A DNA stretch of 30,107 nucleotides from a virus. Under the pieces are notes generated by a model, which saw only the letters and a program-made list of their open reading frames with translations, searched no databases and had not been told where the DNA came from. Of the stretch, positions 1 to 23,263 are shown in pieces (position 1 is the first letter of the stretch; every line of letters starts with the position of its first letter). The translations under genes were made by a program, and so were the position numbers. The stretch is from positions 1-30,107 of the IMG/VR virus record IMGVR_UViG_3300017759_000039; one strand, 5' to 3'.

Positions 1-3000
1 GGGTCATTCTCTCTTGGATAAGAGTGGTTTGTAGAATCGCCATCCAGTGTGCAAGTAAATGTTACAAATCCATCTTGTACCTTAATTCTGCTACCATTCT
101 TAAGACCATGCTTCGCAGAAACAATGGTCATAATACCTGTTGCTGGATTATAACCAGCTGCAGTTGGTGTTAGTTGTGAAGGAGCAACAAACTTATGACT
201 GTAGTTACCACCAGTTACAACTTGTGCTCTGGTAATACCATTAGGTGTTGCAGATTCAAATTGATGTAATGTTGTGTTTGTAGATGGGACATTATCAAGT
301 ACTTGGACATCAAATGTGTCATCTGTGCAATTGGAGATTGTTATCCACTTACCACTTACAGGGTCACTACTTCTTGGATAAGAATGAGGACTACCTAAAC
401 TATCTTGTAAACATCTAAATGTTAAAGAGTTATTGTTGATCTTGATGCTCTCCCCATCATGGAATCCATGATTAGGAATTGTCAAGGTCATCATACCTGT
501 AGCTGGTAGATAGTTAGCATCAGTTACAGTATAAGTCTCAGTACCAGGAATGTAGGTATGAGCATACTGACCACCAGCAACTAATGCACCACTTACAGCA
601 CTTTGGAATACATGAGTTGTTGGGTTAGTAATTTGACCATTACCAACATCAAGTGTAACAGTACCAGTCTGATGATGAAGACTATTAGAAGCGAATGATA
701 CGAAGGTATGATCGTATACATCATTAATTGCAGATTTACCTACATGGACAGTTAATGAATTATTAGATACGTCACTAATAGGTAACCACTGTTTATATGT
801 TGGATCAGATCTTCTAGGATAAGCATGGTTAGTAGCGTTATTATCCTTAGTGCAGGTTAATGTAATTGCACCTTCATCAATCATTACAAAATCATTTGCA
901 TGCCATATTGCATTCATGGCAACGTTTGTTATAACATGAGTTGAAGTGTTAGAGATAGGTGCGTCACCATAAAGGTTACCAACTTGTATATCGAATGTAT
1001 TACTACCAATATTAAACGCCTTTCTCCACTTACCAGAAACAGGGTCAGTAGATCTTGGATATAGATGATCAGATGATTGTCCATCTAAATCGCAACGTAC
1101 GGTAAGTGTCTCATCCCTAATAAGGACCATATCCCCATTGTCAACTGGATGACCACTTGAAGTGACTCTTAATACACCTGTAGTAGGATAGAATGTGCAG
1201 TAGTCAGGTGAGATTTGATTCTGACTTGTCCAACCATTGAATATAGTATCGCCAGTAATTGTCATAGTACCAGCAGTAGGATTATAAGTTACTCCAGTTG
1301 GACTACGAGATTCCTTACCTACTTCCCATACAGGAATGTTAGTATCATAGAAATGATCCTTCTTATGAGTTATGCAGTTATTATCACAAGATACGAATGA
1401 ATGTTGAGTAGTATTTGTAGATGGAATAACATCAAGTACTTCAACACTGAATGTGTTAGCAGTAACATCTACAATAGGTACCCACTTTCCACTTATAGGA
1501 TCTGTAGATCTTGGATACTGGTGTCCAGTAGCATCTGCATCTTTCTTACATGTGAAGAGTAGTGAATTATCAGCAATCTTAATATGTGAGAATGGAAGGA
1601 ATCCATGATTGTTAATATAGAAGTTAATACGTCCAATAACAGGATCATAAGAAACGCTAGTTGGTGTATGAGTAGTAACAGCAGCACGAGGATATGAGTG
1701 GTTGCTTGAGTTACCATCAGCAGCACACTTGAATGTTAAACCGTTATCCTTAATTCTTACACTATCACCAGCATGTCTAACACAACCAGTAACAGATGTT
1801 GAGTAAGTATGGTTATAGATTCCACCAGAGATGAATGATGCTCTCTTAACACTGTTAGGATTAGCACTCTTAAATGTGTGTAGAGTTGTGTTACTCTGAG
1901 GAATTGTTGTTAATACTTGGACATCAAAACTCTGCTCAGTTACGTTAGATACTGTTAACCATTTTCCTGATGATGGATCAGATGCTCTAGGGTAAGTATG
2001 ATCAGTTGCATGATTATCCATTGCACATGTAAATGTCAATGCATTATCATCAATCTTAATCTTATCTCCATTCTCGAATCCATGACCATTAATGGTTAGG
2101 TTCATAACACCTGTTGTTGGGTTATAAACGATAGTGCTTGGAGTGTAACCTGGATGTGGGACAAAGATATGATCTGTAGTATCTGAAGATGCACCTACAT
2201 CAAGAGTAATTGTGCCATCCTTCTTAGTGATTCCACCAGTGCTACCCTGCACGAATGTATGAGTAGTAGTGTTAGTTGAAGGAGCGTAACTTAATACTTG
2301 GACATCGAATGTATAGAGACCTACATTAGATACTGTGATCCATCTATTAGCATATGGGTCACCAGATCTAGGATATGCATGGTTTGTACCATTGTTATCT
2401 TCTAAGCAGGTGAATGTTACTGCATTTTCTTTAAACTTAACTTGATCACCATTGCTCATTCCATGAGCAGAATCACAAGCAACAGTCATAATACCTGTTG
2501 TAGGATTATATGAAGTACCTGTAGTTGCAGTTAAAGGTGATCCATCATGTATGATTGGGCATGGCTTGTTATAGAATGGGTCAGCACCACCATTACCAAC
2601 ATAATTTGATCCAGTTGATCTAGGATAAGCATGTGGTGATTGATGAGCATCTAAGAAGCAAGTAAATGTTATTGCTTCTTTTGCTAACATAATATTCTTT
2701 CCAGAAGATAGATTATGATCACCAATGGTTAGTTTTAAATGACCTGTTAGAGGTGCAAACTCACCAGCAGTTGCTAAGAATGGAATTTGTGGAGTACGTC
2801 CAACATATACATCAAACTCATCTTTAGATACATTTCTAATATCCATCCACTTATCACTCATTGGATCTGTGGCTCTTGGATATGCATGGACTGAAGAATT
2901 TTGGTCCATATCACAGGTGAAACTTACTCCACCGTCAGCAACCTTAACGTAATCTCCAGCAGAGAATCCGTGGTTAGTAACCTTCAATCTCATTAATCCA

Positions 3001-4330
3001 GTTTGACCATCAAATGTCGCACCAGCTATACTATGCTCTGAAGATTGACGAAGAGTTGTTTTTCTATCTGTTGTTAATACTAACTTACCATCAGCAGGAG
3101 TAAATGTTGCATTACTTACATTATATTGTTGCTCAGGTGTCTTACCTACGTTAACAACAATTGTTGTATTAGTTACTCCAACAATAGGTGTTGGCTCATT
3201 GTGTATTGGGTCAACGTGACGAGGATATGAATGGATAGATTTGTTATCATCCATGTCACAAGTAAATGATAATGACTGAGATGCAATCTTAATATTAGTA
3301 CCTGTAGTCAGACCATGACCAGATCCAACTGTCAATTCTAATTGACCAGTAGTAGAGTTAAATGATGCAGCAGTTGGATTCCAACCTACAGTTGGAGATA
3401 CTCCAACGTTAACAGTAAACGTACCACCTGGAATATCAGACTCTACAACATCTAACCATTTTTCAGATGCAGGATCAGAAGATCTAGGATATACATGCTC
3501 ACTATAATAGTTGTCCATGGAGCATGTAAATGTCATGGAGTTATCGAAGATCTGAATCTGCTCACCCTTAGTAAGATTATGACCACCAACAGTTAATTTT
3601 AGAAGTCCTTTATCAGCAGTATATTCAGCATGAGATGCAACATGATGTGTAGCACCAACGAAACGATGCTGACCAATTTCCAATTCTAATTCACCATCTG
3701 TCTGGTTGTAATCTGCACCAGATACATCGTACTCGATCTTAGGTGTTTGACCAACGTTAACAGTGAAACTATTTGTAGTTACTTGCTCTACCAACATCCA
3801 AGCATCACCAGCAGGATCCTTCGCTCTAGGATAACCGTGCTTAGTATTATGATTATCTTGTGCACAAGTAAAGATTAGAGATCCATTCTTAATTTGTACT
3901 TGATCACCAGTTTGGAATCCATGTGCAGTAGACTGACATACTAATAATCCAGTATCAGGATCGTAAGTAGCATCAGATATAGTATGCAATGTAGAATCGC
4001 TCATACCATGATTAGGTAGAGTAATTGACATGCTACCATTCTCAGGATTGTATGATGCAGAGTCTATAGTATGTGCAGTAGCACCAACTGCCATAACTTC
4101 TACAGCAGCATTACCAGCTGGGTCACCAGATCTAGGATAAGAATGAGTTGAAGCATTGTTATCTTGATCACATGTGAAGTTTATAGAGTTAGTTGCAAGT
4201 GATAAGAAAGTACCAACAGTATGGTTATGTGACCCTACGGTCATTACCATATCACCATTACTACTATCATAAGCAGCATGTGTTATGTCGTATTCAATCT
4301 TAGGAGCAGGACCAACATTAATTGTGAAAG
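1..4330 (-). repeat. At least 14 tandem YPR repeats, C-terminal part of the giant protein
   Basis: Fourteen in-frame copies of the core [LV]-x-F-[TK]-C-x2-D-(x)n-H-x-YPR, often followed by a DP-x-SGKW tail. The YPR codons lie at 12, 372, 813, 1053, 1509, 1686, 1986, 2367, 2619, 2874, 3219, 3483, 3825 and 4131 (lower coordinate of each 9-bp site). Copies are 59 to 152 codons apart. A typical unit reads HGF-x2-G-x3-KI-x-D-x-SLTFTC, then the YPR core, then a short TFDVQV-like beta stretch. Several units carry an extra insert with an NTT-x-H-x-F motif and GG-x-Y-x-H. The nearly invariant Cys, Asp and His could bind metal or form a structural core; this is inference. The array continues beyond the edge. 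Confidence 0.9.
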
Positions 4331-7300
4331 TATTAATTGAAGCACTCTCACCGTTAACTAAAGATCCACCACCAATCGCATATCCAGCGAAATTAGAAGA
4401 AGCAAATATTCCACCACCACCTGTTAAACCAGTATAGTTAGCACCAGGAGTTGATGCTTCGCCAATAGGTGTGCCGTCAATCCAAAGTTTTACTCTACCA
4501 CTACCAGTAGTAATATTACCACCAATACGAATCTCCCATACTAGCTCGTGATCACCATCATCAAAGTATGCAGATAGACCACTGATTTGTAGGTCAAGCA
4601 TTGCAAGACCATTATCATTATGGTTTGATCCACCACTGTAAGAGTTATTACCATCACCAGCTCTTAATCTTAAATATGTTCCACTATCTCTAATACCTAA
4701 CCAAGAACCAGATGTTGAATCACCTGCTTCAAATAAACAGCAATCTATTGGTGAAGAAGGTAGTTTTGTAACACAACGGAATACTGCATCTTCAGAAGTT
4801 ACAATTCCAGTGCCACTATCAGTTGTAGAAATCTTATCTTCACCAGCAATGAATGATCTAGTTACAAGACTATTAGGTTGTCCAGTAATAATACCAGTAT
4901 CAGCAACAGAATTGAATAGTGAATTGTTAGGTCTTGGGACAGCATCATAGAATCTTTGATCAATATTATGTCCAGCGTTATTTGTAATAACCTGGCCTTT
5001 CATTGCACGAAGAGCAAATTCTTTTGCCTTATTCATGATCCAGATAGTCTCAGCAGACTGAGCAGCAACATGATCTAACGCACCATTATAAGTGGTATAG
5101 AATTCAGCAGAATACTGCATCCAGTTGTTACCACCATACTTAAGGTTAAACGCTAATGATCTTAAGATATCAGTAACGTCATGCACACAGTTAGCAGGGC
5201 CACCTGGGATGAGTAAGTTGGGGAATTGGACTAATCCAGCAGCAACTGCTTGCTCTGCGATATATCTAATATTACCATCAATAGCATCACCACATTTCTG
5301 ATACATTTCCTCACGTGGGTTTTGCTCATATGATTGTACTGGTGTTGTCTGTAGATCAGTACCTTCAATATAATCTCTACCAAATGCATTACGCATTGTC
5401 ATTGTCATGATATCTCTCAATATCTTGACTACTGTGATAGATGCTTCCCACTCACCCTCAATATGCTTAAGAGAGTTATTTTCTGTCTCAACATATAATG
5501 CAGCAGCATCATATGTCTTCTCGTTACAATCAAAGCGAAGGTCATGTACCGCTGCCTCAATCATATCAAGTACGTCATCTTCACAATTGACTGCTCCACC
5601 TGGAATCTGTAGATTCTCAAACTTGGAGAGGTCATTCATTATTGCTACGCATTCCTTAGAAATAATCTTTCTATTATCCCAGATTACATCAGCAGCATCA
5701 AGATATCTGTCATTAGAGTTTCTACCAGTTGGACCTTGAGGATATGCCTCAGTGTCAATTACTATAGTCTCATCTCTATACGAAGATCTTGAAGTATATA
5801 AAGGAGTATGATACTCTTCTTGGACATATGAAGGTGCACTAGCTCCTAACTCAGATGAAGCTTCACCTGGAGATAGTAACAAGTTATTAATTGCCTTGAG
5901 GCAAAGCATCTTACAATGCTCAAATGCATCAAGCATTGGATTTAATTCATTCTCAACGTGAATGATATTCTCCTGAGTATCAAGATACTTATCAATAACT
6001 GCTTCAGTCTGATATGTACCACCTGTAGCAAGGTCAGCAATTATAGCAGGAAGTATGAAGTCTTTAATATCTCTTTCACAATATGGTTGTCCATATCCAG
6101 GCATCTCAAGGAAGTCAAATGTGATACCATCGATATCCTTCTCATACTTATTCTGAATAAATCCAGCAACTTCTTCTGCGATATAATCTCTATTCTTCCA
6201 AAGTTGATAACCACCTTCTCTGAATCTCTGATCCATAGGAGCAACAACCTTAAGTAAGTTAGATCCTAATTCTGTGATCTCATCAGTAGTATTACTTGAA
6301 GCAGGAGATGAGAAGTTATTAGGTATTCTCAATCTAGTGCTATACTCACCACTTAGATCAGTACTTGTTGTTGTAACTACTTCATTAACAATCTTGAATA
6401 CTTCATTCCAAGTATAAAGAGACTGTAGAATCTCAGCAGCGATGTGGTCTAATTTACCACTAGCAGTTAGATAAGTCCTTGCAGTATAGATTGTATGGAA
6501 ATCTCCACCTTCTCTAAGGTCTTTAATTAGAGCACCAAGGATGTAATCTTTAGTATCTCTTACACAAAGGTTAGTACCACCATATATGTTATTACCAGGA
6601 TCATCACCACGAATAGTGAAGTCTGGGAATGCAACCTTCATTCTACCGACTGCTTCTTCTGCAATCCAAGCACCGTTAAGGTCAATTATATCAGCACATC
6701 TCTTCTGCTCTGCCCTACCAGTATCAACGTCTTCTACAATGATATCTCTATCTGCATAATCAATAGACTTAGCAGTTGCAGATGAAGAATTCTGACCACA
6801 GAATGTAGCATAACAATCAGTAGTAGAGGAAACAAATGGTGCTTCACCATCTAGACCAGCAACAATAGTGTCAAGAGTATAATCAATTGTATTAGGTGAA
6901 GTGAAGTTTGCTTGACGATCACCTACTCCTTTCTTAACAACAAAGTTATCAATATGACCATTCCAACCATTTGCTAGGTTAAAGTCTGATCCAACTTTTA
7001 GTCCACCATATAGGTAATCGTTAGTATCAACGTAGTTAGATCCAACTTGTGATCCATTTACGAATGCCTGTGTAACACCACTTGATCTACAGACTGAAAT
7101 ATGATACCAAGTACCAGTAGTCGCAAATACATCTGTACTAAGGATGGTATTGGTCGTGCCGTTATATACCTTTAATTTCTGTCCATCCATCAAGATATTC
7201 AAACCTTGAGCAGCAGATAGTCTTCTAAAGTCTACAAGTACTTGTGTGCCTACATTAGCACCAGGACGGATCCATCCTTCAATTGTGAAGTCTCCAGTGC

Positions 7301-10300
7301 CAAATTCAAAATCTTTACTCTCATTAAAGACTATTTGACCGTTACTTGGAATTAAGATCGATTTATTTCCCTGTAACTCAGCTTTCTTGATTATTACACT
7401 TTGAGAGCAATTTGTGTTTGTAAGAGTGGAATTAGTTAGATATTCGCCATTTTGGAATGTACCAGTAATTGGTCCAGCAAATAACCACTTAAGACCAGAA
7501 TTAACTCCAATTGCACTGAATACAGCACCAGAGGTAATACCCTTAATTTGATCGTTAGTAATGAATAATCCAGTTGACTTATCCTTGAATGCAAGTTTTG
7601 TAGTCCTTACAGTTTCATTAGCAACAAATGTGCCGTCAGAAACAAGTGCAAGGTTATTAATGTTGGTTAAGTTACCAGAAGTCATTGCAGTTGTTGCAAG
7701 ACCAGCTAAAGTGTCAACATAAGATTTAACGTTAGCACAGTTGTTAAGACCCTGATTATTACCAGATGCATAGTTTGCATCGTAAGTTTGAGCAGGAGCA
7801 ACACCACCAGAGTAAGTTGTAGGATCATTAAGGTTATAACCAGCAGTATTGAGTTCCTTCCAATACATCAAGTTATTAATCGCCTGATACATTAATGTCT
7901 TCGCAGAGTTGAATGCAAAGACTGCTTCTGTCTCTTCTCCAACAATACCGTTAGTTAGAGGTACACCAGCAGCATCGAAGAATTTTTTGGTAAATTCAAC
8001 GATATTATAGTTACCACCTTGACCAACGTCTTCAGCAATAGCATCAATCATGTATCCAAGGTCACGACGGCACTTCTCTTGATGAGGTGAATATGATCCT
8101 TCTGATTCATCAGGAAGCTCAGTTAGAGAAGAAATATTCAATGCTTCGTCTATAAACTCCCAAAGTGTTGAAAGTGTAGACTGTACGTCTGAGCAGTTCT
8201 CAGAATCGGTATTGGAGGCATTGGATCCAGCAGTACCGTAAGGATCATTAGGTGAAGGGTCAGCAGTGATTGTAAGGTCTTGATAAGCAACCCAAGAGTC
8301 TCCAGAGTTAACAGCGTTTATTGTACCTGAATAACCGTTAGTAATAGCAACTAAACAACGATCTTTAGCCTTTTCATATGCAAATCGTGTTTCAGCAGCT
8401 TGTGCATTAACATAAGTTAGATTACCGTTAGTATCGAAGAATTGTTGAATAAACTTACGAGAATAGCGGTTTCCACCTGAATATGCGTCAATAGAGATAG
8501 CATCAACAAATAATCCAATATCTCTCTTACATTTGTCATCTGAAGGAATAGAAGACCCAGGATACTGAGTTTTCATGTCATCGAAAGCCATTCCGATGAT
8601 AAGTGCTCTATTCTTCTGAATAAACCTGTAAGCGTCCTTATAACGACTCCAAGAGTTAGTAATAATGTCAGATGGGAAATAGTAGTCTTCAAACTCAACA
8701 GCAATGCTTGCTTCAGCGAAATCGATGATTTCTTGCTTATTATTAGCAATATTGCGTTTTCCATCTAAGAATCTGTTTGCAGCGATTCCATGGAAGGCAG
8801 AAACTGGATTTCCGTAAATAACCTTCTTATTTCTGATAACTTCGCCTTCTGTAAGCACACCACCAGTAAGTTGAGAATATGTAATCTCAGTAGTCCTAAC
8901 TTCTTCAAAATCGAGGAAATCAGCATTAATTCTTTCAGCAGAGTTATTAAGCTCAGTAGGAGTAATGGAAGATTGTGAAATGTCGTCTAGAATGACATTA
9001 GGGTTAGTTAGAGAAACTAAACGCTCAAATAGTAATCCAAAGAAGGTAGATCCTTTGTTAATGATTAATTCATCAACAGGGTCACCAGTTACAGGATCTG
9101 TATAAGGTGCGATGTATGTAATCTGGCCTGCAATCTTAGATGAGGCAGAATAGATGTACTCATTAAGTCTAAGGTCAAATATTCCAGTTTCAAATCTAGG
9201 AGTACCTGAAGTCTTACTTACAACAAGACGGTCAGTAATAACACCTTCAGTAGTGATATTAGTCTCTTCAATATAAGCAGTGTCACCTTCTAGGTTAGTA
9301 ACTGCTTCACCGAATTCAAATATAGTCTCTGAGTTAACTAGGGTAACAGATTCTACTAATGCAGCGAAGATTTCTCCTCTTACAATTTGCTCATTAAGAT
9401 CAAACGTACCACCAACTTGATTAATGACATCTAGATGATTAGTACCTGAATCAATAACTGTAGCAACAACATCTGTAGTTTCACCTTGGATCTGTTGTCC
9501 TATTGATGGGAAAATACCATAGTTTGCAGTACCACCAGATTGGTAAAGTGCAATTCTGTAGATAGGTGTAGGAGTAACTCCTAAGATTCTATAGTTAACT
9601 TTAGAAGGTGGTTTAGGTGGCTCAGCAAATACTATGTTACCACCAACGATTGTGAATGATTCACCAGGAGACTGGATAACACCGTTAAGTGTAATCATCA
9701 ACTGGTCTTGCTTAACGATGACTTGCTCATTCTCAACAGTAACTGGGAATTGCTTATCAATACCATTAAACTGATCTGAGATATCATCTAGTTTCTTAAC
9801 AATAGAAGTTAAGATTTCCTCAGAAGAAGTCAAACGCTTCTTACGGAAGAGAACCTCAGTATTGTTATAATCGGTGTATATTGGTTGTGCAGCACCGAAT
9901 GATGTAATCTGGTTTACATTACTATAGTTTTGTATATTAACTTTCTTCGTAAATTCTGTACCAATCTTACGACCAGATACGTCCTTACCACCAGTCAGTT
10001 GTAACTGACCAAACATGTTGAAACCAGCAGGGTGGTTATTTTCTAATACTTGTGCTTTCCATTCTGTGATAGGAATCTCAGACTTAACAACATATGAGAA
10101 GTTCTGATAGAAGAAACTATCCTGTATCTTCTGTACAATCTCAGAAGGCTTACCAACGTCATCAATAAATCGGCCTGGTGTCTTCGTTAGGGAGCCGATA
10201 TTCAGCACACCACGAGCAATAGAGAAGTTATCGATAATACCAGATGCCTTAGATATCTCACCCTGTACTCTCTCACCTTCTGCCCAGTCACCAGTGTAAT

Positions 10301-13300
10301 CAACGATCTTAAGAATCTTAGGACCAAGTTGCCAACCAGTGTTAGTAGATACCTTACCGATAGCAGTTTGTGTTTCTATTGAAGATCCTTGATATACTGT
10401 CTCTCCTTCTAAGAAACGAGATGTTTCAACAACAGCAGTTGCTCTACCACCAAATACCTCAGTTAAAAGTGTCTGTCTACCAGATCCCTGAGTTAAGAAG
10501 GTAACGTACGATCCACCTTGTGCAGATGCTTTTGTAAGACCGAATCTTAATTGATCAGGCTCAAGACCAGATGCTTCACCAGCAATTGCATAATATGTCT
10601 GTCCAGCAACCAAACTGGTTAAACCTGCGGTACTTGGTTTTGGTAACTCACCAACTGTTGATCCAATATCATCAGATCTAAATTGGACTTCTGCACCAGT
10701 GGTTATACCGTGTGGGAAGTTAAACTGTAGGTAGTTAAGGTCTAAGTTAACAACGTAGTTAAATTCTGATTTAAGAGTAACAGTTGGTTCGGATGAGTAA
10801 CCTGAACCTGGATTCTTAATAGTAATCTCAGAAAGTCTGTTATTCTTGATAATTGCTAATGCCTCAGCACCAGATCCACCACCACCTTCAATTACAACAG
10901 CAGGAGTAGAAGTATATCCAGAACCTGGGTCAGTTATCTTGATCTGACTTAGTATTGAGGTATTAAAGAGTTGTAGGTTAACAGGGAATGTAATCTCTGG
11001 TTTTAAGGTATAGTCATGTGAATAACCGAAACCAAATTCATTATTCTTCAGTCTCTTAATCTTACCAATGTTAGTACCTGTTAAGAATACAGATGCACCA
11101 GATCCTTCTGAAGGAATAACAACAGTTACAGATCCACCAGATCCAGCAAGAGTTGCTCCTAATATTCCAGTTATAGCGTCTATGTCAATAGATGCAGTTG
11201 TATAACCTTTACCTGGGTCAACTACAGAAACACCTGTAATAGTACCTGATCCAATAGTGTCATCAACTTCTACAGTAATAGTTGCCTTACCACCTTCACC
11301 ATCTCCTAAGATAGGGATATCATAGTAGACACCTGGAGCATATTCAGTACCTCCATCATTAACTACAACCTTCTCAATCTGTCTGAAGGATGCAATATCA
11401 TTAATGATAGGTAGTTTCTGATAGAATCCACCTGGAGAAACCAGTTGAATAGTATTGATAGGTCCAACTGCTCTTAGAGAGGTAGTTGAATAGTATGAAT
11501 ATGGTTGATCAAATTCGTCATTTCCAACCTCTGCATTCATCCTTTCAGGCTCTCTATCAAGTTGGAATTTGAAAGAGGTATCTGTTGGTACTTCTGATAT
11601 TCTGAATGTACCATCAAATGGTGTTTTGATTACATCGATAAAGCTATTATCGCCTACTGGTGAGTCCGCCCCAGTACGTGATGGGTCGAAGTAATAGGAA
11701 ATATTCGTCACATCTCCTAATACTGAGAACTTAACGAATGGAGCTGGGGATGTTGGAATACCTGGAGTACCAGATCTCTCGATGTTATTAAAGGAGTATT
11801 CCAGTTTATACTGGTTGTCCTGAGAGAATGATAGGTAATATCCAAAGTTAGAAACATCAGATAGATCAAATACGTACTGATGATTTCTAGTGAAATCTAA
11901 AGTTGGGTGTTTTGCATAGATGTTAACACCAGCAATAGCATTATTATTAAATGCAGGGTCAGAGTCGGCCACTGCCCTGATACCAAACGTAAATTCCCTA
12001 GACCCTATAATCTGATCAATAAAGAATGATCCATTAAACTGAGCAGTACTAAATCCCTCAGTGAAGATAATGTTACCAGCACCGAAGTTATGAGCACTAT
12101 TTGATGTGCAATAAACGTAGTTAGTTCTGACAGTAGATGATCTAATTATATCCTTCTCTAAACGTGCAGTAACACGAATCTTTTTAACTGATTCAAATCC
12201 GACAATTTCAGTGCTCTTCTCATCTTCAGCAAGAACTATATTACCAGAGTTGATAGAAACAACGTCTCCAGGAATATATACAGACCCTGGTTGAACTTCC
12301 ATGATTTGAACCATGTAGTTGTTACCTTGGTCATAATCCATCAATCTAGTGTATACACTGATTGCTTCCTCAGTAGAAACATGAGTCCAAGTTACACCAC
12401 CATCAGTATCATCACCAGTACTATGAATAGGTGCTGTATTTCCACTAACACCGCCTCCACCAACTGCAACTTGATAGATGTTTAACCCATACCAAACTCT
12501 CTGTCCAACGACGTAGAGACGATCTGGTAACCACTCAGGCATATCTAATCCAGTCCACTGAGGTCTAGGATATGGATGCTGAGTTAGATCAATAGTAAAC
12601 TTACCTGCTGCATCAAGGAATGCCCAGTTTATTACACCATCACTCGCTACACCAGCTGTGTGCACTGGTGCAATTGTACCTGAAGTACCAGCACCTTGTG
12701 CTTGATAAATTCTCTTACCATTATAAACGGTATCTCCTAGAGCATATACAGTACCTGCTGCCCATGGATTCTCTTCTTCAATAGTATCGAAGTATGTTCC
12801 TTCAATTTGGTTTACATCTCCAGCAACAGTCCTATAACGATCTGTATTATTGAATGTACCATATATCTTACCAACTTCATACTTATTACCGTATCCAGGG
12901 GCAAGTAATGTGCCTTCTGGGACGTTTACAATAGTACCATATGCTTGAGTAACACCAGCATCATTAAACTGTTGTAAGATAGTGCCCTTAGTCAACTTAA
13001 GATCTTGACTGAAGGTAAACTCCAATACGTTGTCTATCTTCTGATAGAGAGCATCACGCATATAGAACTTACTAATAACATCAGCAGAGATGGTAAGTTT
13101 CTTACCTAATGGTGATGGAATAGTAGAAGTCTTAGTAGCATACTCAGCTTTATTAGTAGTAAATGTATACGTACTTGGGTTTAATGTAGCAATGACCTGG
13201 GACATATCCAGAATCTGCAAACCACCAGCACCAGGAGTCCATGCAGATAGTGCAGAGAGACCTAAATCAGCCCATGTAGTTGTAGTTTCAATATCTGTAA

Positions 13301-16300
13301 ATGCTATATCTGTATACTTGGTAGTATCAGTTAAAGTGTAACTATCTCTCTTAGAATGAAGTCTATCAAACTTAATTAATACGGAATCTGAATTACTTGT
13401 AGTAACAGGAATCTCTTCACCAGGTGCAGAGTATGCAGTATTATAAGGAGCGATATTGTCTATTACAAGATCATCGATATTACCAATGAAACAGTTAGCA
13501 GATGATGATCCACTATACTTACCAGCAACACCTATGTTATTAACACTAATATCTGACGTACTCTGGAAGTTAGCAACTAAGTTACCATTCAAGAATAACT
13601 CATATTGATAAAGACCTAGTGACTCTTCTCTCTTCTGGAAGGTAACATGTACCCACTGAGCACTAGCGAATGTAGTCCAGTTAACAGCAGTAGCAGATGT
13701 TGCTACTTGTACTGAGTTTACATAAAGGACTGCTTTCTCATAGTTTGCACTATTCTGATCACCATCCATTTCAACCTGTATACTATCACCAGCAACAGGA
13801 ATAACATCAAATAGAAGTGGTTTATGGTTTGTAGCATGAGCAGTGGTATTCATTGCCATCCATACTCTGAAACTCCACTCCTTATCGGTCATTCCGTAAG
13901 AAGCAAGTTTAACAGGAGAAGGAGCACTTAACTTAAGTGATCCATTACCAAACTTATAAACTGCATCATCAAAAGTAGAATCAGGTACTGACGAGAACGT
14001 CATTGTTGCTAAATTCTGCTTAGTGAAGTCGTAATCTAGATCATCAGTATCATTGAAACGATATGATGCTATTTGATCAGACTGTTGTCTATCAAGTACT
14101 AGGATCGGGTCACCAGAGTTGTCTAATGTATGTGTCTTAGCTCTAAAACCGATATTTACAGTATCATCAATCTTAGTCTCTTTAATTACTGTGCCGTCAT
14201 ACTTCAGATAATGAATAACTGAGTATCTTTGGTTTTGTGCTTCTATTACATCAGTAACAAGTGAATAGTTACCAAATACATCTACATTAATACCAGCATG
14301 ATTGATTGAATCAATTGCACCACTAACGGTAACTGTCTTCTGCCATTCCCACTGAGTATTAGCGGTTGCAATTGGGAATTTGCTTATTTGTACCCTATCA
14401 TACTTAGAAAGGACACTATTGTAAACATCCCAAACTAAGATGCAATCACCATATTCATCAACAGTGAATTTAGGATTTCTTACATATCCACCTAGAGTTG
14501 GAATCTGTCTAATGTATTCAATTTCAAGGTTTGCACCGTCATACCAGAATACACCAAAGATACAATCATCATTATCATCGTTAACACCAACAAAGAAGAA
14601 TCTGTCATCAGATATCCACTTAATTTGATTGATCATCTCTGAATCATCAGCAGATGCAATCTTTCTCTTCTCTACAAGGTCACCGTCCAGATTACACTGG
14701 ATGATCCACATATCATTAGGATCAGGTGAATTACTGTCTGTATAACCTGCAAGATAGATACGACCTTCCTGGTCTAATGCTAGAGAGGTGATCCAATCTC
14801 TTCTTGTGGTACCACTGATACCAGCAATTGCTTTCTGCCATAGTAAGATACCATCAGGAGCATTGGCATTATTGAATCCAGACTCATACTTACCTAACCA
14901 AATGTCAGGGTTGTAGTTAGCATTATTAGGATCGTACGTTTGACCAACGATATAGATGATGTCATTCTCTGCTGAAGCATCAATATGCATCTTAATAAAT
15001 TCTGCCTTCTTAGTACCTGAGTTAAGAGGTAGTAAGTTTCTCTCCCAAACTTTCTGGCCTAAGTCATCAAATTTGACGATAATTCCTGCTTGGTCACCGT
15101 CAGTCTCAAGGATGCTACCACAAATATAAGTGTAACGCTCTATAGTAGTTACCATGTCATGTATGGTAACGATACCAGCTGCTTCAAGATACTCGGTAAT
15201 CCAATAACGAGTCTTCTTGTATTGCTGAGGATGTGATACCCTTATCTGAGGAGGATTATCAGTATCGTATCCATTACCAGAGTTAATAATATTAACTTTA
15301 TTAATTTGTCCAGTATTCTCAAGTACCAACTGAAGTGAAGCATCCTGACCAGCAGGTGTTATCAATTCAAATGTTGGTGGGATGTCATTGTTATATCCAG
15401 TACCTGCTTGAGTAACTGAAATACTCTCAACACCTGTTACCACCTTAACCTTAAAGGTCTTCTGGGTATTATCGATAACAGGACGTGAGTTTATAATTAT
15501 CTCATCTTGTTGTCTTAATTCATGTCCTATATCTGTAGTAATAACACCATAAGGACGGTCACCAATGATTTCCTTCTGGTAACCAATAATATTCTGTCCT
15601 TTAACAGATTCAATAATAGCAGATGCACCGAATCCACCAGTACCTTCATTATCGAAGAATATAGTGTCATCTACCTGATATGATTCACCTGGGTTCTCAA
15701 TAACGAATCCATCAATCTGTGCATTCTCAAACTGAGTAGTTGTTTCTACTTCAATATCAACTCTAGACTCAGCAGATACTCTTGGGAAGTAATCATAAAT
15801 CTGTAGAGTTGCCTCTTCAGACATCTCTAGTAATTCTTGTTGCTCATTAGCATCAATCAGACCGTCATTGTTACTATCCTGAATTTCAAAGATAATAGGA
15901 TATCCTTCTATCTCAGTAGTGAATATATCAGCAGTCTGGTTTGGTTGACGATCAATATCAATGTCAACATCAGTATATGGATCTCTATAACGGACAACAC
16001 CATCAGGGATATTCTCTTGTGTTGCTGCCTGAGTAAAGTTCCAAGCATCAGGAAGTGAGTTAAACTGTGGTCCTAGAATATAAGGGAATTGTGCAAGACC
16101 TGCATCACTAGCATCAATAGTAATGAAGTATGCATATGTACCACCAGGATACTCAGGTGTCTTACAGAAACGACCATTATACTGGTCTAAGTCACCAGAC
16201 TGGAAGTCATAGAAATAGTCGTCTACAAAAGTACCAGCAGCATATGTTGCTATAGGAGGACCATCTACTCTAGAAGGGTTAGGATTGGTTACTTCATCAT

Positions 16301-19300
16301 ATACAACGTTTTCTTTTTGTTTGTATGACGTACGCATCCTTCTGATACCACTATTCTGATCAGTAGGATCAATGTATCCATAAGGACCATAAATTGGGTT
16401 ACCATCAAACGCCCAACCAATAACAGGTGAGTGCTCGAAGTTAGATGCTAATTCTTGGAATTGCTGAGTGACAGGGTTTAAGAATACATTATCACCAACA
16501 ACATATCTTAATTCTTTAGGATCTGATAGGTGAGCATATTCACCACCAAACTGGTTGTTATATCCAGTGAATACATAACCTCTTGCGAAGTCATATTTGT
16601 TACTCTCTACTCCTAATTCATATTCTAAGTTTCTATTCCACTGATAGACTGTAGGTGCAAATGACGCTAATTGACCCACTGCTTCGAGTCTAACAGTTGT
16701 TAAACCTTGGGTATATCCAATACCCTTGTTGGTAATAGTTACACCTAAAACACGTCCTTTGTCTTCTCCAATAGTTCCGATAGTTGCTTGTGCAATAGCA
16801 CCAAATCCATCACCATTGATGATTACGTTAGGTGCAGTAGTATAGGAATTACCAGAGTTGATAATAGCGATAGAAACGATTCTACCATTCAATACGATTG
16901 GTTGTGCTAGAGCATTCTCACCAGAGTTAACTTTAATTTCTGGAAGTGAAGTATAACCACTACCAAAGTTGGTAACAGTAACACTTTGAATTGGACCACG
17001 GACACTGGCAGTTGCTTCTGCTCCTATTCCTCCACCACCTGTTATAGAAACACTAGGTTGTGAAGTATATCCTGTACCTGGTTGCTCAACTAGAATACGA
17101 GTAACTCGACCACCAGTGATAACTGCTTGTGCAGTAGCACCAATACCACCGCCACCTACGATTGATACTAGAGGTGACTCAGTATATCCAGTACCTTCAG
17201 TTGTAACATTAAAACTATCAAGACTACCATTTACAATAACTTCTGCAGCTGCATTTGATCCTCCACCACCTTCTATCTCTACATTAGGTTTCGCACCAGC
17301 ATCATAACCTTCACCATTGTTAGTTACAGTGATATTAGTTAAAGGACCATACTGTACGTAATCTCTTGACTTGTAAGACCAAATAGAAACACCATTAACC
17401 CAAGATCCAATTGGAGTACCTGGATTGATAGTTTGACGCTCTGATATAGTTTGGACTGTCCTAGGGAATCTTAATAGCTTCCTTTGGTTGCCTGGGATCA
17501 ATGCTGACCCTGTAAATGGACCTATCTTGTAGTTTGGTAATCCAGATGCAGCAACATAGACATATTGGTCATTAAAGAAAGAGTTTTGGATATTAGTCGT
17601 AAATTCACTAATAACCTTGTTAATAGAGGTTACATCTGACTTACCTCTGTTAAGGTCAACCGATAATAGGATATTACCTGCTGGAATGATCTCAGTTGGT
17701 GTATTGATCCTATATGAGAATTCAAACTCGTTAATACGTGATGTAACGGTAAATGTGCCGTTATAGACAACTGGGTTTGCACCGTAGATCGTAACTTGGT
17801 CAGAAACCAATAATCCGTGTGGGTTACCGCAAACTACAGTCGCAGTCTGGTTATTAACACCACCAGGAGTAATACTGGTTACTTGGATGAGTTTTTTAAC
17901 ATTATACAACCAAGATTGCAATCTTAGCTCTTCAGCAGTGGATCCAAGGTTTGCAACCTTCAATTTGTCTCCACCGAGGTAGTAACTACCTGTATTGTTA
18001 AGAACAGTCGTTCCTGCTTCTGCAATACCAAGAACTCTCAGTTTACACTCATTTGCAGTACCAAAGTTGGTATAGATGTAGATATCGGACTGGATTATGG
18101 TACCAGGATCCCAATCTTCAACAATTCCGTTTTTAGACCTAGTACACTCGATGAACTGGTTTAGGGACTTCTCTTTATACTGAACTTGCTCTTGATCATT
18201 GATTCTGATGGTACCATTCCTTTCGGGCCATCCTATCGTCGAGTCAACCGTAATGATTTGCCCAGTTGTCGTAAGAGGCTCAACGAGACGTGTTTTGTAA
18301 GGAATAATGAAATTCCCAACCAATGTTTCTTCCGAGATAGCCAATTCATAGATTGTATCGGTACCTTCGATGATTGTGATGACATTTTCGATTAAAGCTG
18401 ATGCATCCGTTACGCTAGTGTCAACAGCGTCGGCATATTGGTTAATTTGTGCGTCTAATAGGTTTACAGGGTCACCTTCTATCAATTCTGCTCTAAGAAT
18501 GGTGTCTACAACCCAAGTAGCATAAGATGGACTAATAATCTCATCTTTTGGATAATAAAGGTCAACATCTTGTCCAAATAAGATTTTGAAGAGATATTGA
18601 GTCGCTAATTTAGTACCTTTTGAAACATAGAAGTCACTAATGTTTTTAATGACCTGTACAGGGTTAACTTCGCTAAAATCAATGTCAATAGTAGGCAAAT
18701 ACTGCCTTCTAAACTTATCAAAGACTTCCTTGATGAAAAGGGTGTCTAAATTAATAACTGTGCCACCAGCAAGGTGATTTGATTGCCTTAAAGCTGCTTC
18801 TCCAGCATATATCTCATTATGGAGGTTATCATACTCTACAGGACCAGAAACGCCTCTGGAGCACCCTAGGAAGGCACTAGGAGAGTAACCTGATCCTTTC
18901 TCAATGATATCAAAACCAGTAACTTGGTCAAAACCAACATCTACAGATGCTCTAGCAGATCTTGGATCAGCAATGTAGATTTTAGGTGGGAATTCAACAG
19001 AATATCCAGTACCAAAGTTGGTAATGTTGATATCAGTGATTTCACCGTTGAAAATGGTGGCAGCAGCAGTAGCACCAGTACCGCCTATTAGTTCTCCGTA
19101 TCCATCCTTCCTATCATCAACAATATAGACAGATGGAGCATCAGTATAACCACTACCACCTGTTAACATCTCAATATTGGTAACAGATCCAGATGCAACA
19201 GTTACATCAAGGACTTGAGCACCAATTGGGTCAATTATCTTTACTCTAGGTGGAGTTACATAACCCCTACCTCTATTAACTACTTGTACTTCGTATACTT

Positions 19301-20748: not shown

Positions 20749-22848
20749 TTAGAAACAGGATTCGCTAACAGGATACGTGAATGTATCAGTTGGATAGTCA
20801 ATGATATTTAGCCCACCAAGATCACCGAAATTATAACCATTGAAATTGTTAGGATCAAAGGCTGGGATTGCGGTATCATTGATTGTATAATCAATTGGAT
20901 TGACTGTTGGGCTAAAGACCGTAGGATCATCGCCAGGTGGGATCAAGATAGATCCACCAGCAGGTAATACTTGGATTGGAAGTCTTTCAGTGTCGTCTGG
21001 AGTGCCTTGGATCGCAATTGGTCCAACACAGACTTGTCCAGTCGCATAATTTACACTTCCTACAGAAGGATTGAGGACTAATTCAGTTTCATCTCTTGTA
21101 GTAACTAGAATTAGGTTTCCTGTACCATCATCTCGGATGTTTACTGGTACTAAGACCTCATTTAGCACATTTGTTGATATACCACTAGATGTTACACCAG
21201 CATTAGTCGATCCATCACTTAGAGTGAGGTTAACTAGGTCTTCTGTGTAACCAGTAGCATAGAATGTACCAGATTTGGCAACTGAGAAGGATGGTTTACA
21301 GGAAACGCCTGTATTATCACCAGTACCTCCATCTGGATTGCCAGAATACTTACTAGGGTCGTAAAGTGGGTTACCAAAATCAAGACACTGGGTGAATACG
21401 TTCCCAAATGTGAATTTATCAAGGTTTTTACCCAAGGTCATCTGTGTTACGTTACCAGATATGGCAGTATCACTGTTATCGACCATCGATCCAAATTTAG
21501 ATCCGTCCAAACGACCACCGAATCTATTGTTTTGACCATTTTTGTTAAATTGGTCAATTGCTTGTAAAATCTTAGTACCAAGTTGTGCTCCAGTAAGTGC
21601 AGTATCGTTTCCGTTGTAGTAAACGTAAGATTTTGGAATAATGTAGAAACTTGTTGGGTCAATGATGACTGGTTCAACAGAAGCAACCGAATATTTCTTT
21701 AAATCGTTTTTGATCTTCTGTTTTGTAGTCGCATTTAACTTATTTCCTGTTTTTGGTCTAATTGCAACATAGACTTTTCCATAAACAGGTGGATTTAACT
21801 TCTCACCTCCATATGCAGTTACAGATGCTGCCTGTGGATAGATCTCTGAGACAATATGCTCATAATCTGTCTCTGTGACTGCCCTGTTTTGGGTTGCATA
21901 CGCTCTAGGTGCTCTAAACTTGACTGAAAGTCCTGTTTCACGGTCTTCACCGTCTTGAGCAGCGTCTTTTGTACTAACTTGTAACGCAGCAGGTGGTATT
22001 ACCCTTCCATCAGAGTCAACTATGTTACCAATGTAGTCAAAATTCTTACATCCGTTAGCTTCAACACCATTTGTGCTTACATAAGTGATAGTAAGGTATT
22101 CACCATCAACTAATTTACGTCCAATTGACCCATCACCGAAGACTAGACGATATCTAAGGTCATCTGTCTCTTCCAAATAGTAAATTCTGGTGTTAGCATC
22201 AGCAGCAGTGACGTTTGCAGCAAGATTATAGGTATCAGTTTCAGAAGATTGAGCATTTGGAGAGATATCTACCACCAAAAGACTCGTATCTACGTTTTCA
22301 CCAGGTATAACGAAGTCCTGACGTGTAGTATAGTCAACTGTATAGTTGTATCTTAGTAAATTACCTTGATATACAAGCACATTATCGAAACTTGCTATAC
22401 CAGTAGCACTATCAACAGCAACTTGGATGTCTTGAGTCAGTGTAAAGGTGAAATTATCGTTATCATTGTTAGCAACAAAGACATCACCCTTCCTTAAAGT
22501 AGCAAATTCTGGATAAGTGGTACCATTTAGACCAATTGTAGTCTGTGCAGCGATTGCTAGACACGCCCTAGATGCTTTAATAGACCTTGGAGTGTAATTT
22601 AACTGCTTTGCTATCCTTACAATGTTGTCTCTAACAGTCGCTGTCTCAAGAAACGCCTCATTTAACGCCATGTTAGCGTTGAATGCAGTATAATATGTGT
22701 TATAAGCAAGTACGTCAATCAAATATGATGATGTAGATCCCTCAAAATCATAGTCCGTGAACTCTTTTCGAGTACGAAGGTACGATTTGATAGATTCTTT
22801 GATCTCAAAGAAGTCTAACGACGTTAATTGTGAAGGAATTGCTGACAT
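20749..22848 (-). CDS. 6: Baseplate wedge protein gp6
   Basis: The product is 699 aa, against 660 aa for T4 gp6. gp6 forms the iris-like ring that joins the six wedges of the contractile-tail baseplate. The N-terminal 100 residues are typical: SLDFFEIKESIKSYLRT, DYDFEGSTSSYLIDVLAYNT, ANMALNEAFLETATVRDNIV and IAKQLNYTPRS. The middle carries the baseplate J-like string (about residues 308-370) RAYATQNRAVTETDYEHIV and PPVYGKVYVAIRPKTG. The C-terminal third is Gly/Asp/Thr-rich and poorly conserved to my eye. It starts one base after the gp25 stop (TAA-A-ATG), with GAGAGA just upstream, so translation is probably coupled to gp25. The giant gene follows after 4 nt. Confidence 0.95.
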   Translation of the reverse strand: MSAIPSQLTSLDFFEIKESIKSYLRTRKEFTDYDFEGSTSSYLIDVLAYNTYYTAFNANMALNEAFLETATVRDNIVRIAKQLNYTPRSIKASRACLAIAAQTTIGLNGTTYPEFATLRKGDVFVANNDNDNFTFTLTQDIQVAVDSATGIASFDNVLVYQGNLLRYNYTVDYTTRQDFVIPGENVDTSLLVVDISPNAQSSETDTYNLAANVTAADANTRIYYLEETDDLRYRLVFGDGSIGRKLVDGEYLTITYVSTNGVEANGCKNFDYIGNIVDSDGRVIPPAALQVSTKDAAQDGEDRETGLSVKFRAPRAYATQNRAVTETDYEHIVSEIYPQAASVTAYGGEKLNPPVYGKVYVAIRPKTGNKLNATTKQKIKNDLKKYSVASVEPVIIDPTSFYIIPKSYVYYNGNDTALTGAQLGTKILQAIDQFNKNGQNNRFGGRLDGSKFGSMVDNSDTAISGNVTQMTLGKNLDKFTFGNVFTQCLDFGNPLYDPSKYSGNPDGGTGDNTGVSCKPSFSVAKSGTFYATGYTEDLVNLTLSDGSTNAGVTSSGISTNVLNEVLVPVNIRDDGTGNLILVTTRDETELVLNPSVGSVNYATGQVCVGPIAIQGTPDDTERLPIQVLPAGGSILIPPGDDPTVFSPTVNPIDYTINDTAIPAFDPNNFNGYNFGDLGGLNIIDYPTDTFTYPVSESCF

Positions 22849-22849
22849 T

Positions 22850-23263
22850 TTATGCTCTCTCTAGGAGAAAATCTACTGACTGTTGGACTTCCTGTCCTAC
22901 TATGGTATACTCTATGGCAACTTGGATAGAATTAATGTCTGAATCGTCTCTTAAATCTATTGAAGTTACCTCAATACGAGGTTCAAGTCTTTGAAGACAG
23001 TTATAAATTTCACCTTTCATGGAATCAACACTAAATGGATCCCATGGTTCAAATAATAGCTCTCTAACACGAGATCCTATCTCATCTTGAAAAGGTCTCT
23101 CACCATACATGGTGCAAATTAGGTTACGTACAGACTGTTTAATCGCATTTTCATTTCTAACCACGCCAAAATCGCCAGTAGAGGGATTGGAGTTAAGCGA
23201 AATCGCCAAATCCTTGAATCCTCTACTGACGTACTTCTCAGATCTGAATCTGTAGCTTGCCAT
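22850..23263 (-). CDS. 25: Baseplate wedge protein gp25
   Basis: The product is 137 aa, close to T4 gp25 (132 aa). gp25 binds gp6 in the wedge core and helps nucleate the sheath; the family (GPW/gp25) is lysozyme-named but structural. The signature is complete: NAIKQSVRNLICTMYGERPF followed by QDEIGSRVRELLFEPWDPF, then the C-terminal strand pair ending VDFLLERA. AGGA lies about 9 nt before the ATG and supports this start. It is preceded by a candidate late promoter and hairpin (23295-23324) and is the first gene of a gp25-gp6-giant gene unit. Confidence 0.96.
   Translation of the reverse strand: MASYRFRSEKYVSRGFKDLAISLNSNPSTGDFGVVRNENAIKQSVRNLICTMYGERPFQDEIGSRVRELLFEPWDPFSVDSMKGEIYNCLQRLEPRIEVTSIDLRDDSDINSIQVAIEYTIVGQEVQQSVDFLLERA

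Follow-up and report, generated by a model that had tools for sequence, protein, structure and literature searches.

The virus record analysed here (the window, 30,107 bases), which ends at a contig edge inside a giant gene, encodes a repeat that is absent from the described, named families searched; what is new is a variant of the small endosialidase/FCCH-type barrel, so classed on its predicted fold, in an unusually long array. The protein that carries it is probably a giant wedge protein of the gp7 type, from the baseplate of a T4-like marine cyanophage, an assignment that rests mainly on gene order. We put at about 0.5 the probability of the whole reading, namely that some 30 barrels of the endosialidase/FCCH kind, with hairpin arms, belong to a gp7-type protein and provide multivalent contact with polysaccharide. 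Each repeat would then form one small β-barrel domain of ~85 residues, and its FTC-D-H-YPR arm (unit positions 33-57) would lie between two barrel strands that pair directly with each other, in the place of the short sialic-acid-binding loop of the endosialidase barrel, and would not be a metal site. About 30 such barrels, with a further module (HTF) between some of them, would make up the long internal arm of a gp7-type baseplate protein of roughly 9,900 residues, and the baseplate may use the arm and neighbouring loops to touch host surface polysaccharide weakly at many points. The features of the window are as follows.

22850-23263, minus strand: gp25 baseplate wedge gene
20749-22848, minus strand: gp6 baseplate wedge gene
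3-20744, minus strand: giant baseplate gene at the gp7 position, 6,914 codons in the window, with an ATG start and open at the contig edge
3-4286, minus strand: in-window part of the array of predicted FTC-D-H-YPR β-barrel units
4020-4286, minus strand: unit 1, core 4131-4178
3714-3980, minus strand: unit 2, core 3825-3872
3372-3638, minus strand: unit 3, core 3483-3530
3108-3374, minus strand: unit 4, core 3219-3266
2763-3029, minus strand: unit 5, core 2874-2921
2508-2774, minus strand: unit 6, core 2619-2666, insert after YPR
2256-2522, minus strand: unit 7, core 2367-2414
1875-2141, minus strand: unit 8, core 1986-2033, the canonical unit and the basis of the single-unit model
1575-1841, minus strand: unit 9, core 1686-1733, second half truncated
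1398-1664, minus strand: unit 10, core 1509-1556
942-1208, minus strand: unit 11, core 1053-1100
702-968, minus strand: unit 12, core 813-860
261-527, minus strand: unit 13, core 372-419
3-167, minus strand: unit 14, core 12-59, truncated at the contig edge

The core, [FVL][TKR]C-x2-D-x5-H-x-YPR, occurs exactly 14 times between positions 12 and 4178 on the minus strand, all in a single open frame and confined to its last 1,427 codons within the window, as against 0.0 cores expected when these 1,424 residues are shuffled. Neighbouring cores lie 59 to 152 codons apart; a preliminary description of this DNA, which had counted at least 14 copies at that spacing, was right on both points. Its account of the core, with Cys, Asp, His and YPR conserved and DP frequent, agrees with what we found in the window, where none of Cys, Asp, His, Tyr, Pro and Arg varies among the 14 cores and Asp-Pro follows in nearly all of them. 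A complete unit of ~85 residues starts with Y-x-P-x-TG-x-L-x-LT-x2-HG(F/L)-x2-GD-x-(I/V) and ends with WLxIxxVTxxTFxVNVG. Much of the variation in spacing is accounted for by the second conserved module, HTF (H-x-F-x-S-A...), which was found between units 698 times versus 50 in shuffles; the median unit spacing is 85, 114, 129 and 152 codons with 0, 1, 2 and 3 HTF modules, respectively. For every one of the 14 window units, the best match is the collinear counterpart in another virus (L032), at 52-79% identity and with a bit score above that of the best paralogue. The array is thus an old one, inherited unit by unit and not homogenised.

AlphaFold2, supplied with an alignment of 118 units, models the single unit with seven strands at a mean pLDDT of 86. 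Three adjacent window units were predicted at a mean pLDDT of 84, with uncertain orientation between units (pTM 0.56). The closest PDB neighbours of the single-unit model are the endosialidases of K1F/NF and phi92 (Z 5.6-6.0, rmsd 2.2-2.6 over 58-62 residues), followed by E1 FCCH (Z ~4.3, and 5.2-5.9 with the triple model); riboflavin synthase is also near. These matches are modest (Z <8; Foldseek E about 0.06-0.1) and could reflect a common small-barrel arrangement. Profile comparison by hhalign with the endosialidase barrel family scored 31.9, at a probability of 81%, whereas none of 60 column-shuffled controls exceeded 15.2; the alignment pairs the final two strands as well as HG(L/F)-x2-GD, while a gap drops most of the FTC...YPR segment. 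In direct coupling analysis of 943 units, strand 27-32 pairs with 58-63 (D32-S58 being the strongest pair), and 36/38 pair with 47/49, so that positions 33-57 form a hairpin of their own; the best coupled pairs score above the permuted maximum of 2.6. Since the two strands pair directly around a self-contained hairpin, the FTC-D-H-YPR motif is best read as an extra hairpin arm, of 25 residues, on a barrel whose kind is known. AlphaFold2, coupling and profile comparison thus agree in predicting a small β-barrel similar in kind to that of the endosialidases or of E1-FCCH, which bears out the β repeat proposed in the preliminary description. A PDB match to iota-carbonic anhydrase, consisting of three weak pieces in the first half of the unit only, was judged to be due to chance.

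The continuation of the giant gene is found in a related contig (G001; loci L005, L084 and L085), which brings it to 9,922 codons in total. Over its first 655 bases the gene is 98.9% identical between the two; over the 8,139 overlapping bases, raw base-by-base identity is 86%, a value that is low because the register is lost beyond a three-codon shift at core 11. The G001 protein has 30 cores by regular expression (residues 5,523-8,625) and 32 units by profile. As ~1,250 residues of other sequence follow the array, it is internal and does not lie at the far end of the protein, where it had been placed from the window alone; it is internal too in P-RSM6, P-SSM4, S-TIM4, ACG-2014d, S-RIM8 and MED4-213. 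The final stretch of the G001 protein looks Ig-like to the eye and received no Pfam name.

Directly upstream of the giant gene in the window are gp25 and gp6, and a gp9-family gene (PF07880) lies downstream of it in the related contig. Named cyanophages have the order gp25-gp6-[giant]-gp9-...-gp8, with the giant gene labelled gp7 or 'virion structural protein', and the order gp25-gp6-gp7 with gp9/gp8 nearby is thus found across the window, the related contig and the named phages. With a profile built from seven N-termini, T4 gp7 heads the list of PDB matches, weakly (E 0.0027 over 32 residues) and in the collinear place; phmmer found no PDB relatives of the first 1,000 residues of the giant protein.

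Several other elements were seen in or near this gene. The N-terminal half of the window frame (3-20744) contains a second repeat, GSGYTxxPxVxIxGGGGxGAxA, in at least 13 copies (residues 363-3313). A YHYH domain (PF14240) was matched in the part of the giant protein encoded at 12003-20744, minus strand, and also in a separate downstream gene (L085, 5124-6716). The same part of the window matches an SBBP β-propeller repeat at about residues 1978-2005, and a Laminin_G_3/concanavalin-like lectin domain is encoded at 4332-12002, minus strand (Pfam E 6e-13). The gp9-like protein of the related contig (L085, 6741-8222) has a terminal stretch with YQCTLHPAMVG that resembles a plastocyanin-type copper site and has no Pfam name.

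A search with a single unit found it in 297 of 50,697 phage records, all of them named Synechococcus, Prochlorococcus, cyanophage or marine virus, and at 348 candidate places in marine viral contigs; none of the plasmids searched carries it. Four contigs of marine MAGs matched the unit, and the three examined carry cyanophage tail or structural genes, one of them with a CpeT-like gene as well; we read all four as phage contigs in the wrong bin. Annotated unit-bearing proteins of cyanophages are baseplate, tail-fibre, structural or hypothetical proteins, and units also occur outside the gp7-type gene, in 'tail fibre' and 'short tail fibre' proteins. By profile, S-RIM8 has 1 copy, ACG-2014d and P-HM2 have 3 each, S-TIM4 has 6, P-SSM4 has 11, P-RSM6 has 18 and Syn30 has 9 in a partial sequence. 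No unit was found in four large tail genes of S-PM2. The very large S-PM2d genes S-PM2d081 and S-PM2d088, both of which were mutated in a coevolution experiment (PMC9910659), lack it. S-PM2d081 (LN828717), without the unit, is the S-PM2 gene at the gp7 position. One virus record (G007, the L029 contig) has units in two separate giant genes, with open frames of 5,916 and 3,849 aa.

Going beyond the computed repeat, family, position, predicted fold and substitutions, we would place the array in the baseplate of the virion, where it may bind a ligand and take part in adsorption. The most likely role is to give the baseplate multivalent contact with host surface polysaccharide, a proposal drawn from where the gene lies, the association of the units with tail and baseplate, and the distant relative that binds sugar. 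The receptor-binding function suggested earlier is plausible on the same grounds, although not in the far-end location that had been part of the suggestion. Given a single unit in S-RIM8 and none in the S-PM2 tail genes examined, the domain is not essential for adsorption. The main rival gives the barrels a purely structural part, as spacer or scaffold, so that the length and stiffness of the gp7 arm matter and the units have no ligand site of their own. This would fit the strong divergence of units at many positions, a copy number that ranges from 0 or 1 to ~30 among phages with otherwise similar baseplates, and the internal position of the array; however, a 25-residue arm with an invariant Cys and YPR in almost every unit exceeds what a spacer needs, and the position and identity of units are kept from virus to virus, so we consider a plain spacer rather unlikely. 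A more specific proposal, that the receptor is read by the FTC...YPR arm, that the ~30 distinct, vertically inherited barrels turn each gp7 arm into a multi-site reader of polysaccharide and that copy number and unit identity thereby tune cyanophage host range, is speculative and in our view doubtful.

Among 1,574 aligned units Cys is present in all and YPR in >99%, whereas Asp is found in 93% (absent in 7%, with Gly or Asn in about 6%), the His position is His in 78% and Lys in 20% (316 of ~1,560 units), and in ~8% of units the ten-residue segment from Cys to YPR is replaced by loops of 6-13 residues. The universal Cys might be taken to form disulfides or thioesters, from unit to unit or with the host surface, but each unit has only one conserved Cys, which has no conserved partner and whose place at a strand end beside Phe37 fits a buried core residue, and the resemblance to E1 FCCH is limited to the barrel fold; such bonds are very unlikely. 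Metal binding by the Cys-Asp-His triad of each unit, which the preliminary description had taken as a hint from the fixed residues, is consistent with the invariance of all three in the window and with the placing of Cys39, Phe37, His48 and Tyr50 on one hairpin face by coupling parity, but is extremely improbable given that His gives way to Lys and Asp to Gly or Asn while Cys and YPR stay, that some units exchange the D-H segment altogether, and that D42 and H48 couple at 1.93, short of the permuted maximum. Couplings of the near-invariant columns fall within the permuted range. Because His is replaced by Lys in 20% and Asp is lost in 7%, a Cys-Asp-His metal site is not a general property of the family.

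T4-like cyanophages abound in the sea, yet they lack recognised counterparts of several tail-fibre genes of T4 (PMC2984593). The barrel, a defined domain that can be aligned, whose fold is predicted and which has distant sugar-binding kin, is a testable candidate for how the baseplates of these phages touch the host, and naming it would let annotators label thousands of residues that are now 'structural protein'.

Among known families, the unit reaches no cut-off in Pfam or NCBIfam. The endosialidase β-barrel (PF12195) and E1_FCCH (PF16190) are among its commonest weak Pfam matches; the former was matched by 17 of 118 units (best E 0.0019), and the whole window array piece scored 13.8 bits against a gathering cut-off of 35 for PF12195 and 28.7 bits against 29.5 for PF16190. 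A match to CoaZ_rpt_PGGG (NCBIfam) was also under the cut-off. Four PHROGs of cyanophage structural proteins (1276, 5342, 701 and 18802) were each matched by 114-118 of 118 diverse units and hold this very unit, but they are clusters of whole proteins in which the domain is unnamed, phrog_1276 being listed as 'unknown function'. The earlier label 'undescribed' therefore stands for Pfam and NCBIfam and has to be qualified elsewhere, as the unit is present, unnamed, in PHROGs and in hundreds of cyanophage records and has distant kin in PF12195. T4 gp7 shares with the giant protein the position following gp25-gp6 and gives the weak, short collinear profile match, but at 1,032 residues it has no repeat array, and most of the window protein is without a T4 counterpart. 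E1 FCCH has the barrel arrangement predicted for the unit but belongs to ubiquitin-activating enzymes and lacks both a repeat array and the FTC/YPR arm. The named domain to which the unit appears distantly related is PF12195 (K1F, phi92), with which it shares the HGL-x2-GD turn, the final xFTV strand and, as predicted, a small β-barrel. K1F has three polysialic-acid sites, of which this barrel is one; the loops of the barrel are hotspots of host discrimination, and a mutational study placed S460 and S468 in a sialic-acid site (PMC12632334). By the hhalign alignment, the arm would sit at the K1F loop that carries these two serines. The endosialidase barrel, however, occurs singly in a trimeric tailspike, and its counterpart of the 25-residue FTC...YPR arm is a short loop.
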